DNA from: a virus
DNA length: 23,006 bases
Virus record (IMG/VR): IMGVR_UViG_3300028557_000199
Span: 1-23,006 of that record
Strand: one strand, 5' to 3'
Program-made: the position numbers and the translations under genes
Part shown: one piece after another, positions 3,334-11,267 of the stretch
Layout: every line of letters begins with the position of its first letter
How positions within the stretch are numbered: position 1 is the first letter of the stretch
Notes under the pieces: generated by a model
Databases searched by the model: none
Told to the model about the DNA's origin: nothing
Seen by the model: only the letters and a program-made list of their open reading frames with translations

Positions 3334-4125
3334 TCAACCAAGTAAATTCACCAGCGATCTAGCTCTTCCAGATGCCAGCTGTGTATAAACCTGAGTAGTA
3401 GCCACAGATGAGTGGCGCATTAAATCTCTTACTGCTAGTAAATCTCCGCCTGATTTCTCAAGCATATTGGTAGCAAAGTAATGCCTACAGGCGTGGAAAG
3501 TCTTCTTAGGTATACCCAAGCGCTTCATCTCAAGTGAGCACATCTTGGTCAGAGCGTTAGGCGTTACTGACCATATCTTGCCACTGGTTTCGTGCTTCAA
3601 AATTGTCTGAGCTACTATGGCAGCAACTGGCACAGATATGTCTGTACCGCCCTTACCTGCCACTCTGAGGATGTATCCATCGTCAGCCTGCTCTAGGTCT
3701 ACCCCACGAAGGTTTGCCACCTCCATAGCCCTTAGACCCGCTTTACAGCCTATTATGAACCAGTCCCTCATAGGCAAGTCAGCCTTAGTCATAACCAGTT
3801 CAGCCTCGCCTGGGGTCAAAGGATGTGGTAATCCTCTTGCCTTGCGTACAGCAGGTAGGTCTAGGTCAGCTTCATTTTCTATCAGGCCCATCTTTCGCAG
3901 AGCCTTAAAGATACTTCTAATGCGAGCTGCGTAAGTTCCCTTAGTTGATGTGGCCTTGACTCCCATAATGAGTCGTTGCAGATCCTCAACGGTAGCTACT
4001 TCTGGGTGAACACCAAGGCGTAGCAGTAGGTTGAAGTCATTTCTAAACAGGGCCTCAGCATATCCCTGTGATTCATAGCGTGCTTGTAGCTTTTCTTTCA
4101 TTGTTTCTAGCGGTATTTTCTTCAT
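3334..4125 (-). CDS. Tyrosine site-specific recombinase
   Basis: A 263-aa recombinase with all catalytic residues of the family: Arg132 (GLRAMEVANLR), Lys158 (GKGGTDISVP), His211-x-x-Arg214 (FHACRHYFATNM), His238 (LMRHSSVATTQ) and the nucleophile Tyr247 (VYTQL). Residues about 8-80 look like a short core-binding (SAM-like) domain; no arm-binding domain is apparent. I use the ATG (KKIPLE); a GTG lies three codons upstream with no clear ribosome site. The location is odd: it sits between a plus-strand fibre-tip cassette and the large tail protein, not in an early lysogeny module. No repressor or excisionase is visible nearby. It could be a prophage integrase, but adjacency to convergent fibre units suggests a fibre-switching invertase working like FimB/FimE. 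Confidence 0.9.
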   Translation of the reverse strand: MKKIPLETMKEKLQARYESQGYAEALFRNDFNLLLRLGVHPEVATVEDLQRLIMGVKATSTKGTYAARIRSIFKALRKMGLIENEADLDLPAVRKARGLPHPLTPGEAELVMTKADLPMRDWFIIGCKAGLRAMEVANLRGVDLEQADDGYILRVAGKGGTDISVPVAAIVAQTILKHETSGKIWSVTPNALTKMCSLEMKRLGIPKKTFHACRHYFATNMLEKSGGDLLAVRDLMRHSSVATTQVYTQLASGRARSLVNLLG

Positions 4126-4132
4126 AGGAACC

Positions 4133-4162
4133 ACTTTAACATAGGGATTATTCTGGTGTCAA
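4133..4162 (-). promoter_or_regulatory. Candidate promoter for the recombinase gene
   Basis: On the minus strand a perfect TTGACA (4162-4157) is followed after 18 nt by TAAAGT (4138-4133, four of six matches to TATAAT). Transcription would start only a few bases before the recombinase ATG. The -35 box abuts the 23-bp repeat at 4164-4186, so rearrangement at that repeat would change what lies upstream of the promoter. The weak -10 and the very short leader keep this tentative. Confidence 0.3.
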
Positions 4163-4764
4163 CCACAATCCTTAGAGATTGTTCCAAGAACATTCCCCAT
4201 TTTGTAGCGGATAGTTCGGTTTCTCCAACAGGGTTGAAGTGGGCTGCGCCTGGAGGTGCAAGCGCATTAACCTTTATTGCTTCAGCGACTCCAAGCGGAG
4301 CAGCAAGCCAATCTTTTAATAATTGTTTTTCAGCGACTTATCAGAATTATTTATTTGTTTGCAATCTAAGTGTTTCTAACGCGGAAGAGCAATTAAATTA
4401 TAGGATGCGAGCAAGTGGAACAGATGCAACTGGTTCTGATTACGATTACCAATCACTCGGCGCTAGAGCAAGCACTACAATTTCAGGTTTTGGTTCAAAT
4501 AATCAAACTGCTGGCAGAGTTGGTAATTTTGGTGGAAGTAGCACTATCCAAAGTCAATTTGTATTTTATGTTAATCGCCCTTTTGAGGCAGAAGCAACTA
4601 CATTAGTGTCGCAAATGTCTTGGTATAACGGCACAGACGACATAAGATGGACGGCTTATGCGGCAGTTCATACCCCGACAACTTCTTATGATGGAATAAG
4701 TCTTATTTCAAGTGCTGGAACAATGACGGGCACAATTCGCATCTACGGCTACGCCAACAGTTAG
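4156..4764 (+). CDS. Orphan tail-fibre tip module (no proper N-terminus)
   Basis: A 202-codon open frame on the opposite strand from all neighbours. It encodes a C-terminal fibre domain. The junction FVADSSVSPTGLKWAAP is the usual transition from fibre base to tip in many aquatic phage fibres, and the end GTIRIYGYANS is a common tip terminus (both from memory). What should precede it, the conserved fibre base as in GDLIVGTANDTPGILSVGTNG of the fibre at 6238-6741, is missing. The only upstream start is a GTG at 4156 (AGGGA 8 nt before it), followed by about 15 residues unlike any fibre base. The frame is open from 4111 but holds no ATG before the tip. I read it as a silent or donor cassette that becomes a full fibre after recombination in the GTAGCGGATAGT stretch. 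Independent expression from the GTG cannot be excluded. Confidence 0.72.
   Translation: MSTTILRDCSKNIPHFVADSSVSPTGLKWAAPGGASALTFIASATPSGAASQSFNNCFSATYQNYLFVCNLSVSNAEEQLNYRMRASGTDATGSDYDYQSLGARASTTISGFGSNNQTAGRVGNFGGSSTIQSQFVFYVNRPFEAEATTLVSQMSWYNGTDDIRWTAYAAVHTPTTSYDGISLISSAGTMTGTIRIYGYANS
4164..4186 (+). repeat. Recombination-site-like repeat, copy A
   Basis: C-ACAATC-CTTAGA-GATTGT-TCCA: two perfect 6-bp inverted arms around a 6-bp spacer. It matches copy B (4995-5017) at 20 of 23 positions, all three differences being in the spacer. The two copies are directly oriented, 831 bp apart, and exactly enclose the plus-strand fibre cassette. Arms with a 6-8 bp spacer are the layout of tyrosine-recombinase crossover sites, and the recombinase gene starts 39 bp away. 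It could also be the phage attachment core. Confidence 0.55.
4202..4215 (+). repeat. 14-bp inverted repeat, left copy
   Basis: TTGTAGCGGATAGT within the orphan fibre tip, encoding the V-A-D-S junction. The same 14 bases occur on the minus strand at 6595-6608 inside the expressed fibre gene, in the same codon phase. The flanking bases differ at once on both sides. As an inverted pair it would allow inversion of the 2.4 kb between the two copies. Confidence 0.75.
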
Positions 4765-4772
4765 GAATTAAA

Positions 4773-4994
4773 ATGAAGATATCTGAAACTTTTGCAGAAA
4801 CAAACGAAACAATAGTTAGAGATATGACCGAAGAAGAACTTGCTCAACGGCAAAAAGATATAGAGGAACAAGCGCAACTAAAAGCAAAGCAAGAAAAGGC
4901 TGAAGCAGAGGCAGCAGCCAAGAGGGCAGCAGCCGAAGCAAAACTAGCAGCACTTGGGCTTACCTCAGATGACCTTAAGGCTTTAGGTCTGTAG
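4773..4994 (+). CDS. Small fibre-accessory protein of the plus-strand unit
   Basis: A 73-aa, highly charged, probably helical protein: an N-terminal KISETFAETNETIVRDMTEEE segment, then a Lys/Glu/Ala-rich helix (about residues 24-62) and a C-terminal TSDDLKALGL. Small proteins with the TNETIxRDMTxEE start commonly follow tail-fibre genes in aquatic phages (from memory), so a fibre assembly or chaperone role is plausible. It starts 8 nt after the orphan tip frame with AGGA 6 nt before the ATG, so the two are coupled. Its stop lies 6 bp from the convergent stop of the minus-strand accessory gene, with repeat copy B at the junction. If the tip is silent, this gene is probably silent too in this orientation. 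Confidence 0.68.
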   Translation: MKISETFAETNETIVRDMTEEELAQRQKDIEEQAQLKAKQEKAEAEAAAKRAAAEAKLAALGLTSDDLKALGL

Positions 4995-5017
4995 CACAAT
5001 CTATAAAGATTGTTCCA
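4995..5017 (+). repeat. Recombination-site-like repeat, copy B
   Basis: C-ACAATC-TATAAA-GATTGT-TCCA, the partner of copy A at 4164-4186. It begins one base after the stop of the plus-strand accessory gene and includes the stop codon of the convergent minus-strand gene, whose last residues (LEQSL) are encoded by the site. A bidirectional terminator was considered: the 6-bp AT-rich stem without a T run is too weak, and the second copy inside the start of a coding frame does not fit that role. Confidence 0.55.
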
Positions 5018-5342
5018 GCCAACTTAGGCTATCTTCATCCCAATACCATTCGCCCTCTGTGGGCATTGGCGTTGGCGGTTGCCAATCAAAGTTTTGGTCT
5101 AGCGACCAAGATGGATAAGGTTGTGGGGCTATAAATACATCATTGACGGCATCATAAGTGTAGCCAATGCCTGCATATTGCTTGCGTATGTTGTTATTGT
5201 ATGAAGTTCGCCTGCAGACTTGGCCTCTAAAATTGCCATACCAAGTTTCTGTGTCTAAACCTTCTATAAGTTCAGTTTCATCAATGCCTGTAATGACTTC
5301 AGTTACTATGTTGTTTTCATCTAAAAAAGCGTAGTGTGCCAT
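5001..5342 (-). CDS. Fibre-associated protein (tail-fibre assembly-like)
   Basis: A 113-aa soluble protein starting MAHYAFLDENNIVTEVITG, with a central YNNNIRKQYAGIGYTYD segment and a C-terminal part rich in Trp and Pro (QPYPSWSLDQNFDWQPP). I know this pattern from many cyanophage and other aquatic phage fibre loci, where it follows the fibre gene; the usual guess is a fibre accessory or chaperone. The start chosen is the ATG overlapping the stop of the glycine-rich adhesin (TAATG); three extra codons upstream are unlikely. The C-terminus runs into repeat copy B. It occupies the position of the U gene in a Mu-type fibre segment, facing the 73-aa gene on the other strand. Confidence 0.72.
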   Translation of the reverse strand: MAHYAFLDENNIVTEVITGIDETELIEGLDTETWYGNFRGQVCRRTSYNNNIRKQYAGIGYTYDAVNDVFIAPQPYPSWSLDQNFDWQPPTPMPTEGEWYWDEDSLSWLEQSL

Positions 5343-6238
5343 TATGCCCAACTCACATTCCCTGTGCCAGCAGTAATTGTTGCAATAGTATTTGCACCGC
5401 TTGTGCTTGTTGATCCTGTCAAACCTGCACCAATAGTTATAGTTCCAGCAGCAGTTGGAAAACTTAGAATAACAATTCCAGAACCGCCGTTGCCACCAGA
5501 AGTGCCGCCAGTGTCACTTTCGTTATATGAACCACCGCCGCCTCCACCGCCCCTATTTGCTGTGCCAGCAGCGCCTGGGGTGTTGCCAGAGACAATTCCA
5601 CCATCACCACCGCCACCTGCTCCACCTGTTCCTCTAGTAACTGTATAACCGCCACCGCCACCGCCACCGCCATATGAAATTGAAGAGCCCGAAATATTTG
5701 TGCTAATACCAGCGCCGCCATTACCGCTTGTTACTGTTGTGGCAGTTGCGCCAACAGCATTTGCACCACCACCGCCACCTGAACCAAATGGAGGCCCAGA
5801 GGCAAAATTATTGGCGCCACCTGCGTAACCTTCGTTCGCTGTTCCCGCGCCGCCTGTCCAACTATCACTTGATGCTCTTGCCCCACCCCCTGAACCACCT
5901 GATACACCATTTCCATTTTGAGAATTACCGCCACCACTTGTTGAAACTGTGCTAAAAACAGAGCCTGCACCTGCGGTTGCGGTGCTTATACCACCTGTTC
6001 CACCTGCGCCAACTGTAACTGTATAATTAGTAGATAAACTTAAAGATAAAGCGCTTGGTAAAGACCCACCACCGCCTGTTGCTTGAACTGTGCAACGCAC
6101 ACCACCTGCACCACCACCGCCGCCACTACCCCCACCTGATGAAGTTGCACCGCCACCACCAGCAACAACAAGGTAATTGACAGTAAGTGGCACAATGCGC
6201 GGATAATTTTGTGAAGCAATAATCCCGATTAAACTCAT
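5342..6238 (-). CDS. Glycine-rich tail-fibre adhesin
   Basis: A 298-aa protein: an N-terminal 20-residue head (MSLIGIIASQNYPRIVP), then VNYLVVAGGGGATSSGGG and about 230 residues of glycine-rich sequence with several G6-G8 runs. It closes with GGSGIVILSF and a last 40-residue Thr/Gly segment ending GTGNVSWA. The VxYLVVAGGG start and GGSGIVI end mark the phage glycine-rich domain family. In T2/S16-type Gp38 adhesins, glycine-rich motifs form polyglycine-II lattices that bind host receptors; a similar receptor-binding role is inferred here. The ATG overlaps the fibre stop (TAATG), so it is translationally coupled to the fibre and to the 113-aa gene downstream. An in-frame upstream extension has no support. 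Confidence 0.8.
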   Translation of the reverse strand: MSLIGIIASQNYPRIVPLTVNYLVVAGGGGATSSGGGSGGGGGAGGVRCTVQATGGGGSLPSALSLSLSTNYTVTVGAGGTGGISTATAGAGSVFSTVSTSGGGNSQNGNGVSGGSGGGARASSDSWTGGAGTANEGYAGGANNFASGPPFGSGGGGGANAVGATATTVTSGNGGAGISTNISGSSISYGGGGGGGGYTVTRGTGGAGGGGDGGIVSGNTPGAAGTANRGGGGGGGSYNESDTGGTSGGNGGSGIVILSFPTAAGTITIGAGLTGSTSTSGANTIATITAGTGNVSWA

Positions 6239-6741
6239 TAGGCGATATCTCCTACGACATACCAAGTGTCGGTTGCGACCTTGATGCAAGAAGCGGCTGA
6301 GAACTGAGCCCTCAAGTCGGGCTCTGCGGCAGTAGCTCCTGTTGATGAGATCGTAGTAGTTCCTGAAGTAACTGCCTTGATTGTGGTCTGTCCTGCACCG
6401 ATTTGAATAACATTGATTACTGTGCCAACTGGAAAAGCAACATTGGCATTAGTTGGAATTTGGAAATCATTAGCAGCAGCATTGGACATAGTGACCAGTT
6501 TGTAGGCATCACCGAGGACAACTGTGTAAGTAGCAGTCTGAGCGTTTAGAACTACTGGAATGCCAGCAGAGTAGGCAAGTCCTGTGGCTGCTCCACTATC
6601 CGCTACAAGTGTGTGGCCGTTTGTGCCGACTGACAGGATACCTGGGGTATCGTTGGCAGTACCTACGATCAGGTCGCCCTTAGCGGCTATAATAGACTCA
6701 GGGATACCTGTCCCTGGTTCTGGAATACGTCCTATTGCCAT
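6238..6741 (-). CDS. Tail fibre protein, currently complete version
   Basis: A 167-aa fibre. Residues 1-50 are the common fibre base (AIGRIPEPGTGIPESIIAAK, GDLIVGTANDTPGILSVGTN), ending in HTLVADS. The rest is a beta-rich C-terminal half (TATYTVVLGDAYKLVTMSN, FPVGTVINVIQIGAGQTTI, DTWYVVGDIA). The start is an ATG one base after the stop of the 109-aa gene with GGAG 10 nt upstream; nine extra upstream codons overlap that gene and are rejected. The codons for VADS share 14 bases with the orphan tip at 4202-4215 in the same phase, so a swap there keeps the frame. This is the S-like gene of the proposed two-way fibre locus. Confidence 0.78.
   Translation of the reverse strand: MAIGRIPEPGTGIPESIIAAKGDLIVGTANDTPGILSVGTNGHTLVADSGAATGLAYSAGIPVVLNAQTATYTVVLGDAYKLVTMSNAAANDFQIPTNANVAFPVGTVINVIQIGAGQTTIKAVTSGTTTISSTGATAAEPDLRAQFSAASCIKVATDTWYVVGDIA
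6595..6608 (-). repeat. 14-bp inverted repeat, right copy
   Basis: Minus-strand TTGTAGCGGATAGT inside the expressed fibre gene, identical to 4202-4215 on the plus strand. It lies exactly between the conserved fibre base and the variable C-terminal half, the place where a fibre-tip exchange has to occur to give a functional product. Confidence 0.75.
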
Positions 6742-7474: not shown

Positions 7475-8377
7475 TTATTTGGTGTAGTGAAGCCGTATTG
7501 GATACTTGTCAGCTAACTTCAATGCTTCCTCTTGAAGTCTCTGTTGATATAGAGCAAAGATGTAACGAGATGCAGATGCACCAGAGTTGTATGGATTCTT
7601 GGTGTCATTAAGATCAGCCTCAGCGCTAGATAGATTTATACGACCAGCGTCAAGGAAACTGAGAAGTTTGTATGAAGCACCGAGTACAGTAACATCAGAA
7701 GAGCTCTCAGGTAGACCAGTAACGTCAGCATAGTCATCGGTATTAGCATCAAGGGTATTGGCTGTTGTTGTGTACCAGACTTGAACGGTACGACCAGGTT
7801 GTATGTTTTCATAGATGTTCACCGTATTGTTAGTGTTAAAGGTTGCTGAGCTTGCCATTGGGTCTGCTCTCCAACGGTTAATAGGTAACCATTCCTGAGA
7901 AGAGCCTGTGGTCTGCCAAGACATATACAGGATTGATTCCAAATCATCTGGCAGAGCGTATGTAGTCTGAGAAGCATTAAAGGTAAAGGTTGTTGAATTT
8001 ACTGCCCATAGTTTAGGGAAGTAAGAGTTAATCGTATCGTTGATAGCCTTCTTGATATTAACTCTAGGAAAGGTTGGAGATAAAGTTACCTGAGCATACT
8101 GGGCGTGTGGTGATGCGGTAGTTCCTTGATATCCGCGACCAAAGCCTGGAGCTACAGTTAGAGTATTGCTGGCCTTATCAAAGGTATCAATCCAAAGTAA
8201 TTCGTCATCTATCTCAACTACACCTTTAGCAAGGTTACTAGCAGAGCCGATAGTAATGTTAGTGCTAGTAGCGCTAATGCCACCTGCATTGGTTACATAC
8301 GATATGCGATCTTGGCGAAGGGCATAGCCTTGTAGATTGGCTCTGACCTCATCAACCATTTCTCCCAGTGTTGGCAT
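7475..8377 (-). CDS. Head-tail adaptor-like protein
   Basis: A 300-aa protein beginning MPTLGEMVDEVRANLQGYAL with a helical start. A beta module follows (about residues 25-85; EIDDELLWIDTFDKASNTLT, GFGRGYQGTTASPHAQYAQ), then a core with TFPRVNIKKAINDTINSYF and ALPDDLESILYMSW, and a helical C-terminus (SRYIFALYQQRLQEEALKLA). Helices at both ends around a beta core resemble connector/adaptor proteins of short-tailed phages (gp4- or gp11-like), but no single motif proves it. I choose the ATG with GGAAGGA about 5 nt upstream, which leaves a 26-nt overlap with the glycosyltransferase gene; eight codons further upstream is less likely. It heads the tail-fibre block. Confidence 0.6.
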   Translation of the reverse strand: MPTLGEMVDEVRANLQGYALRQDRISYVTNAGGISATSTNITIGSASNLAKGVVEIDDELLWIDTFDKASNTLTVAPGFGRGYQGTTASPHAQYAQVTLSPTFPRVNIKKAINDTINSYFPKLWAVNSTTFTFNASQTTYALPDDLESILYMSWQTTGSSQEWLPINRWRADPMASSATFNTNNTVNIYENIQPGRTVQVWYTTTANTLDANTDDYADVTGLPESSSDVTVLGASYKLLSFLDAGRINLSSAEADLNDTKNPYNSGASASRYIFALYQQRLQEEALKLADKYPIRLHYTK

Positions 8378-9437
8378 TGTTTCCTTCCGTATACCAGCCA
8401 TCTTCCCAGAGCGTCATTAGTCTCTGGAAATAGTATTCATATTGCTTTGCTATGACATCTACTGAGTAGAGCGATATAGCCCTATCTCTAATAGCCTGTC
8501 TATCTAAGTTCTTGACATTTTGAGTGGCAAGAATAAATTCTTCTACGTTGCGACATCTATAACCTGTCACACCTTGAACTACAGTTTCAGTAAATGCACC
8601 CCAGTCTGTAGTAATTACTGGAGTTCCGCAGGCTTGTGATTCAATGTTCACATTACCAAAAGGTTCTAAGTAAAGCGTTGGGACAAATGTAGCTATTGCT
8701 CCACCCATCAACTCTGCACGCTTCTCAGGTCCTACTGGACCTAGATACTCACCATAGTTTGGTATGTGTGGTCCAGGACCTGCAAAGATAAGTCTTGCTC
8801 CGATGGTCTTGCAGATATGCGCTGCAATGTCTATACCTTTTCTCGGAATCATTCTCCCGACATACAGGTAATAGTCTCCATCACCTTTGCCCATTGGGAA
8901 CATATCAGGATCTAGATAACCTGGAATCACTGCATCAAAGAATGAACCATCTACTTGAGCAGCGTTCTTATGCTGAGCATAGATTGCGTGCATCCAAGCA
9001 TAAGATTCATAAACTCTATATTGAGCAAATACTCCTGCGTATCCAACACCAAACTCTACTGTCATCATTGCTGGCAGTGCATCTGCTATTGGCTTATGAC
9101 TTGCTCCACCAATTACACAGATGAAGTCGTGCTTCTCTGCTCGCTTCTTAATTTCAGCAGCAGCTTTCTTATTAAACTTTTGCCAGTGAGGTAAACGATA
9201 ATCAAAGGGTGCTTCAACATAAGGCTTATTGCCTACAACGATTCTGCGTTGTGTCTCAGAGATACAAGAGATGTGCTCATCTACTTGAGCTTCATTCTCA
9301 TCGCCTGCATATAGGTAGACCGTATGGCCTAACCCTTTCATCATATTGCAGAATCTGCGAACCTTTTCAGTGTACGCACAACCTGCAAATTCTTTAGTTA
9401 CCTGTGTATGGGGTAGAGCTACTACGTGGAATCTCAT
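8352..9437 (-). CDS. GT4-like (GT-B) glycosyltransferase
   Basis: A 361-aa enzyme of GT-B fold. The N-terminal half binds the acceptor (FAGCAYTEKVRRFCNMMKGL, GHTVYLYAGDE). The C-terminal half has the nucleotide-sugar site: YLYVGRMIPRKGIDIAAHIC (about 191-210), RLIFAGPGP (215-223) and the E-x7-E motif EPFGNVNIE (Glu258, Glu266) followed by SQACGTPVITTDWGAFTE. It has no membrane segment or signal peptide and should act in the cytoplasm. It is 9 nt downstream of a GT25-like gene, itself overlapping a collagen-like fibre gene, and it overlaps the adaptor gene. The likely substrate is therefore a virion protein, although modification of host surface glycans is possible. Donor sugar unknown. Confidence 0.85.
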   Translation of the reverse strand: MRFHVVALPHTQVTKEFAGCAYTEKVRRFCNMMKGLGHTVYLYAGDENEAQVDEHISCISETQRRIVVGNKPYVEAPFDYRLPHWQKFNKKAAAEIKKRAEKHDFICVIGGASHKPIADALPAMMTVEFGVGYAGVFAQYRVYESYAWMHAIYAQHKNAAQVDGSFFDAVIPGYLDPDMFPMGKGDGDYYLYVGRMIPRKGIDIAAHICKTIGARLIFAGPGPHIPNYGEYLGPVGPEKRAELMGGAIATFVPTLYLEPFGNVNIESQACGTPVITTDWGAFTETVVQGVTGYRCRNVEEFILATQNVKNLDRQAIRDRAISLYSVDVIAKQYEYYFQRLMTLWEDGWYTEGNNANTGRNG

Positions 9438-9446
9438 ACCACAATT

Positions 9447-11267
<1,821 letters not shown>

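Follow-up and report, generated by a model that had tools for sequence, protein, structure and literature searches.

The window analysed here is a stretch of 23,006 bases of viral DNA (IMG/VR virus record IMGVR_UViG_3300028557_000199, positions 1 to 23,006) with tail and head genes on its minus strand, and its source is a bacterial virus known from environmental DNA alone. The subject of this report is a tail-fibre locus between positions 3334 and 6741, in which two fibre units face each other next to a gene for a tyrosine recombinase (Table 1). On the minus strand lie a fibre gene, composed of a constant base and a joined tip, and the genes for a glycine-rich adhesin-like protein and an accessory protein of 113 amino acids (aa). 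The plus-strand unit consists of a fibre tip that has no base and a 73-aa accessory protein, and the stop codons of the two units converge exactly 6 base pairs (bp) apart (4995-5000). All these elements had been described in an initial annotation of the window, and each was recovered at the same position.

The inverted site and the proposed switch

The two units share a perfect 14-bp inverted repeat, TTGTAGCGGATAGT, which had escaped the initial annotation. One copy (4202-4215, plus strand) opens the headless tip and the other (6595-6608, minus strand) lies within the fibre gene, and both are read in the same frame (L/F-V-A-D-S). Upstream of the outer site, next to the recombinase, this frame amounts to a short non-fibre stump. 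When the segment 4202-6608 is flipped in silico, the fibre base is joined in frame to the plus-strand tip, giving a protein of 242 aa from the first start, and the present tip becomes headless and adjoins the recombinase. Identical inverted sites thus enclose two alternative C-termini, each of which the constant base can join in frame. By length alone, chance would give about one such repeat in the 23-kb window, and two are observed; in Markov simulations, a repeat fell between these two gene regions in only 8 of 4000 runs.

The locus very probably switches the tail-fibre tip by site-specific DNA inversion, as a fibre shufflon with two tips. In this scheme, the recombinase would pair and exchange a short asymmetric site (core GTAGCGGAT, here identical over 14 bp) that is present in two inverted copies, one lying in the fibre gene and the other beside the recombinase. 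Flipping 4202-6608 would replace the base-fused tip, the glycine-rich protein and the 113-aa accessory with the plus-strand tip and the 73-aa accessory. Since the site encodes V-A-D in nearly every tip, every join would stay in frame. The inversion is presumably performed by this recombinase and would take place within single virus populations, with altered receptor recognition or host range as the likely outcome.

Table 1. Features of the fibre locus, in window coordinates
Feature	Position	Strand	Remarks
Tyrosine recombinase	3334..4125	-	263 aa; arm-binding domain not apparent; probable invertase; Pfam Phage_integrase 1.6e-13
Promoter-like site for the recombinase (TTGACA, 18 nucleotides, TAAAGT)	4133..4162	-	Consensus scan, 10/12 matches
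Palindrome ACAATC-N6-GATTGT	4165..4182		Adjoins outer site
Proposed invertible segment	4202..6608		2407 bp; 14-bp inverted repeat at both ends; flip yields intact alternative fibre
Outer (recombinase-proximal) candidate crossover site TTGTAGCGGATAGT	4202..4215	+	
Silent headless fibre tip	4204..4764	+	186 aa from VADSS; predicted all-beta; no base
73-aa accessory of silent tip	4773..4994	+	Homologues come after many tips in relatives
Second palindrome	4996..5013		Between converging units; RNA fold -10 to -12 kcal/mol, z about -3
113-aa accessory of joined unit	5001..5342	-	phrog_7759, function-unknown family; opposite strand in L186/L013
Glycine-rich adhesin-like protein	5342..6238	-	298 aa; Pfam Gly_rich_2 1.2e-9; phrog_2295
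Joined tip, part of the fibre now expressed (VADSGAATGLAYSAG...)	6238..6608	-	phrog_8780, minor tail protein
Base candidate crossover site TTGTAGCGGATAGT	6595..6608	-	Within fibre gene, codons L-V-A-D-S
Constant fibre base, N-terminal (MAIGRIPEPG...)	6609..6741	-	Lies outside invertible segment

Site, silent tips and orientation among relatives

To find relatives, IMG/VR was scanned with three recombinases and one neighbouring gene as queries, and matches were counted at an identity of at least 45%. This yielded 102 distinct loci with a recombinase relative, denoted below by L numbers. Matches to the 14-mer across IMG/VR lay, among the matches listed, mostly in unrelated contigs and were counted solely where the recombinase was also present. 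The core is enriched upstream of the recombinase, with 117 copies in 239 kb versus 7 in 418 kb elsewhere. At 61 loci it adjoins the recombinase, as such or as a one-base variant, and opens a headless reversed tip; its position in relatives is about 55-135 nucleotides (nt) upstream of the recombinase. The silent tips of relatives likewise lack a base, and they are found in both orientations. At the silent sites, the VAD frame stays open over 100 codons or more in 63 of 73 tips, the remaining 10 ending at a contig edge, and it is open at all base-oriented sites (40/40) as well. Beside the recombinase, an open frame of 140 codons or more on the opposite strand is present at every site-bearing locus tested (52 of 52, including the window) and at none of the 27 site-less loci, so the layout is not due to chance.

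Many loci contain three sites, and L075 has four tips. Several sites serving more than two tips are therefore found in relatives, and the overall system is a shufflon of which the window, holding two tips, is the two-tip form. The term two-way switch, used in the initial annotation, thus fits the window and is too narrow for a family with 2-4 tips. In a tree built from 72 distinct recombinases, loci with the site cluster inside a grade of relatives without it; four changes of state are needed, which may be read as one gain and three losses. Among these basal relatives, L072, L082, L211, L258, L261, L272 and others carry an intact recombinase downstream of fibre genes that all point forward; neither a reversed tip nor a repeated site was found there, and repeat searches returned no alternative inverted site in the non-switching relatives.

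The opposite arrangement exists among close relatives and is joined exactly at the site. In L079 and L312, the right flank, on the recombinase side, is 97.4% identical over 3,660 bp, and the base is 91% identical. Both contain a 732-nt cassette (core, tip and accessory) that is 100% identical but inverted: in L079 it is joined to the base, and in L312 it adjoins the recombinase and is headless. Its identity starts exactly at the first base of GTAGCGGAT, with no matching base ahead of it, and stops at a palindrome described below. In a second pair, L186 and L017, the flanks are 99.6% and 97.5% identical, the unit of glycine-rich and 113-aa genes is inverted, and the left homology stops at the core. 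L186 is the flipped form of the window's own unit types: a tip of the silent type (tip2-like) with an accessory like the 73-aa protein is on the base, and the glycine-rich and 113-aa genes are reversed and adjoin the recombinase. Assembler overlaps are usually longer than the shared core, which makes chance misjoining at the core unlikely. The check for inverted relatives suggested in the initial annotation has thus succeeded, between related phages and not within one virus. Its proposal that the adjacent tyrosine recombinase swaps the tips has held up well, as the shared in-frame inverted site, the headless silent tips and the flipped relatives predicted by such a switch are all found.

Three observations weigh against an inversion switch. 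The cassette of L079 and L312 is more alike than its flanks; exchange between phages therefore also took part there. No contig pair from one virus was found in both orientations: the near-identical window/L004, L034/L035, L048/L182, L013/L186 and L314/L315 agree, and therefore switching may be slow or one form may dominate. Lastly, an intact recombinase persists in relatives without any reversed tip, which implies that the enzyme has, or had, another task. As for the window's own silent tip, the search for contigs with this tip found none in which it is joined to a base; its relative in L086 (57%) belongs to a locus where no recombinase was found.

A second element, the palindrome ACAATC-N2-9-GATTGT, is linked to the system. 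It occurs in 92 copies in 287 kb upstream of recombinases and is absent from 470 kb elsewhere in the same contigs, and it is present in 47 of 48 switching loci as against 7 of 25 others. It stands at cassette ends and adjoining silent cores, and none was found at the window's base core. The palindrome was considered as the crossover site and set aside, its centre differing between the window's two copies (CTTAGA and TATAAA) and the base site having none; an insulator, an accessory binding site and an exchange boundary are candidate roles. The junction in L028 lies at the palindrome, where the missing silent unit appears to have been lost. L028 and L213, two single-tip loci of the switching clade, retain the core in the base and have no silent unit, and they are probably locked derivatives.

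Cassettes also seem to be replaced between phages. Several loci (L016, L018, L019, L020 and others) match at 97-99% identity for kilobases, starting at the recombinase, with unrelated tips that begin within tens of bases of the site, a pattern pointing to rapid cassette turnover. Another contig, L003 (IMGVR_UViG_3300027970_000676), has cassettes and a recombinase 99.5% identical to those of the window on a different fibre base without the core; it is possibly a recombinant or a chimeric contig and was left out as evidence. The locus could be conceived as one mainly for cassette acquisition, where the enzyme captures or swaps tips between co-infecting phages in an integron-like manner and inversion is secondary. 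The great diversity of tips beside 97-99% identical flanks would follow from this, as would the 100% identity of a cassette between phages that are themselves 97% identical, the 2-4 cassettes per locus, the palindrome linked to them and the distant kinship of the enzyme to integron integrases. However, most cassettes run opposite to the base, an arrangement that serves inversion, the palindrome centre varies between the window's copies in a way unlike a crossover site, and no free circular cassettes are known; as an account of the main function, this explanation is improbable.

The recombinase and codon freezing at the site

The recombinase frame (3334-4125/4134) is complete, and the Met at 4125 is the start conserved in relatives. 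Residues R132, K158, H211-x-x-R214, H238 and Y247 are all invariant in the recombinase alignment. The ratio of non-synonymous to synonymous substitution rates (dN/dS) is about 0.05-0.08 in close usable pairs and 0.20 in one distant pair (where dS was estimable), which, at the level of sequence, indicates purifying selection on the enzyme. The best family models are XerC, XerA, XerD and the integron integrase, and by sequence the closest enzymes of solved structure are Xer recombinases and Gp33, the armless integrase of Brujita. A structure model of modest confidence (predicted local distance difference test, pLDDT, 66) is nearest to the Brujita, Tn1549, integron IntI4 and XerA enzymes and can support the enzyme superfamily alone. 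The FimB/FimE class assigned in the initial annotation is therefore appropriate at superfamily level, with the nearest matches by sequence and fold being XerA/XerC/XerD, integron integrases and the Brujita integrase.

Of the records searched, 11 bear the recombinase, many of them fragments, and in each of these a single tyrosine recombinase and no serine enzyme was found; neither type was found in five related records about 40 kb long. The enzyme could then be a lysogeny integrase that happens to adjoin the fibre genes, the reversed tip being a passive relic, and this would be in keeping with its position as the sole recombinase found in each of those 11 records, with the intact copy kept by relatives without a reversed tip and with its likeness to the armless Brujita integrase. 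Such a role is nevertheless very unlikely in view of the core site and reversed tip that are tied to the recombinase in 61 loci and of its location amid tail genes. Moreover, no tRNA (transfer RNA) gene was found in the window, and a pattern-limited scan of genome contigs revealed no close integrated relative, the best match having 39% identity. This match (L290, in an Actinomycetes metagenome-assembled genome) was rejected as an integrated copy, as it is a lone gene without fibres. A prophage integrase with an attP matching a host tRNA gene, the finding that would have spoken against the original proposal of a switch, was thus not encountered.

An inversion switch is further supported by the codons of the site itself. 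The tip motif VADS...TG is also common to relatives whose recombinase has no reversed tip. In switching loci, the VAD codons are GTAGCGGAT (GTA GCG GAT) in 125 of 126 cases, versus none of 21 in basal relatives that carry the recombinase but no reversed tip (p 1.5e-24, uncorrected for common descent), where GTAGCAGAT, GTCGCGGAT, GTGGCGGAT, GTTGCAGAT and others are used. This count covers motifs reading VADS, excluding variants such as GTAGCGAAT in L017. A few residues further on, the Thr-Gly codons are freely variable in the same switching loci. The site is thus conserved as DNA, and such freezing is the pattern expected of a recombination site overlaid on coding sequence. Identity between base and silent sites goes only 0-4 nt beyond the 9-nt core on its 5' side, with a total length of mostly 9-16 nt. 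Ordinary homologous recombination at a conserved coding motif, with the repeat reflecting VADS ancestry and no enzyme-driven inversion, may invoke the conserved protein motif VADSxxTGLKW and the clear movement of cassettes between phages (as in L079 and L312, more alike in the cassette than in the flanks), but it is scarcely credible given that the synonymous codons are frozen at the site yet variable in neighbouring codons and in relatives without reversed tips, that the site identity is too short for RecA-type exchange, that silent sites are non-coding upstream and still keep the core, and that a reversed open frame occurs in every site-bearing locus tested.

Known systems, significance and neighbouring features

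In the G segment of Mu (with gin) and the C segment of P1 (with cin), two facing units of tip and accessory share a constant fibre part, and the invertase gene lies just outside. Both Gin and Cin are serine invertases with a Fis enhancer. The locus described herein resembles these segments in its facing units, constant base and adjoining recombinase gene, and differs in the class of enzyme. The initial annotation likewise compared the layout with the Mu G segment and noted the different enzyme class: the window record gave no match to PF00239 (serine recombinase), and its enzyme belongs to PF00589. The R64 shufflon (Rci, PilV) exchanges the C-terminus of a plasmid pilus adhesin by means of a tyrosine recombinase and short asymmetric sites. 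By general description, it is similar in its enzyme class and C-terminal exchange, with a phage fibre in place of the pilus adhesin here. The Min system of p15B, whose enzyme is a serine recombinase (PMC6109161), shuffles several fibre ends by inversion, as in the relatives with 3-4 tips.

The closest precedent is the Rin shufflon, known from prophages of Bifidobacterium (PMC6109161) and Eggerthella lenta (PMC8778435). It combines an armless tyrosine recombinase with a receptor-binding protein that has a constant N-terminus and several dissimilar C-termini, short asymmetric repeats of 11 bp and 8 bp, and inverted variants between relatives (PMC6109161, PMC8778435). Compared by layout and published description, the present system shares the armless recombinase beside variable receptor-binding ends, the short asymmetric sites and the inverted variants. 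In contrast to the Rin crossover site rix, TTCCCTAACCC (PMC6109161), the site here is GTAGCGGAT and is itself a codon-frozen part of the fibre. Unlike in Rin, the tips bring their own accessory genes, a palindrome is linked to the system, cassettes are exchanged, and no second integrase was found in the 11 recombinase-bearing records searched (many of them fragments). In addition, the phages are environmental, with Streptomyces Flowerpowervirus as the nearest. The earlier statement that no phage switch of exactly this composition had been described needs qualification, a tyrosine-recombinase fibre shufflon having already been published (PMC6109161, PMC8778435). No description of the system of this phage group was found in the literature searched, which covered few subscription journals. 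What is known, then, is the tyrosine-recombinase fibre shufflon of gut prophages; what is new is a variant in another phage lineage.

The principle is hereby extended to a group of environmental phages, in which about sixty loci offer a precise crossover core and about a hundred distinct tip ends. The codon-frozen site is a simple signature that can be searched for in reads, and therefore the rate of switching and its ecology could be measured without cultivation. Relatives that have the recombinase but no reversed tip, and those that have neither, form a natural comparison set. Because the trait clusters on the recombinase tree, it can be tested how a DNA switch originated from a recombinase that was already present. 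A broader and still tentative idea is that one recombinase both flips tips within a genome and trades cassettes between co-infecting phages, at a site set in frozen fibre codons. Such a system might be a phage counterpart of the integron for receptor-binding ends, having arisen once from a fibre-adjacent recombinase with another task.

Several features of the window are of secondary importance. The open reading frame of the fibre has an ATG at 6741, with a start possible from 6768. The structure model of the silent tip is of modest confidence (pLDDT 64) and can support nothing beyond an all-beta fold; its Foldseek matches are uncultured phage proteins, including tail fibres, with E-values down to 1.8e-12. 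Judging from its position, the 73-aa accessory may be an assembly helper. The promoter-like site upstream of the recombinase is a weak candidate, since the region is no richer in such sites than shuffles, and an Rfam scan of the window gave no match. Among named cultured phages, the head and tail genes are nearest to those of Streptomyces Flowerpowervirus and kin (capsid 41-43%, tail protein 35-36%); in Stella, no recombinase is annotated at the corresponding place. Further along the window, at 8352-10927, a collagen-repeat protein is encoded beside a group 1 and a GT25-family glycosyltransferase, which suggests that the virion may bear a glycosylated collagen-like fibre.

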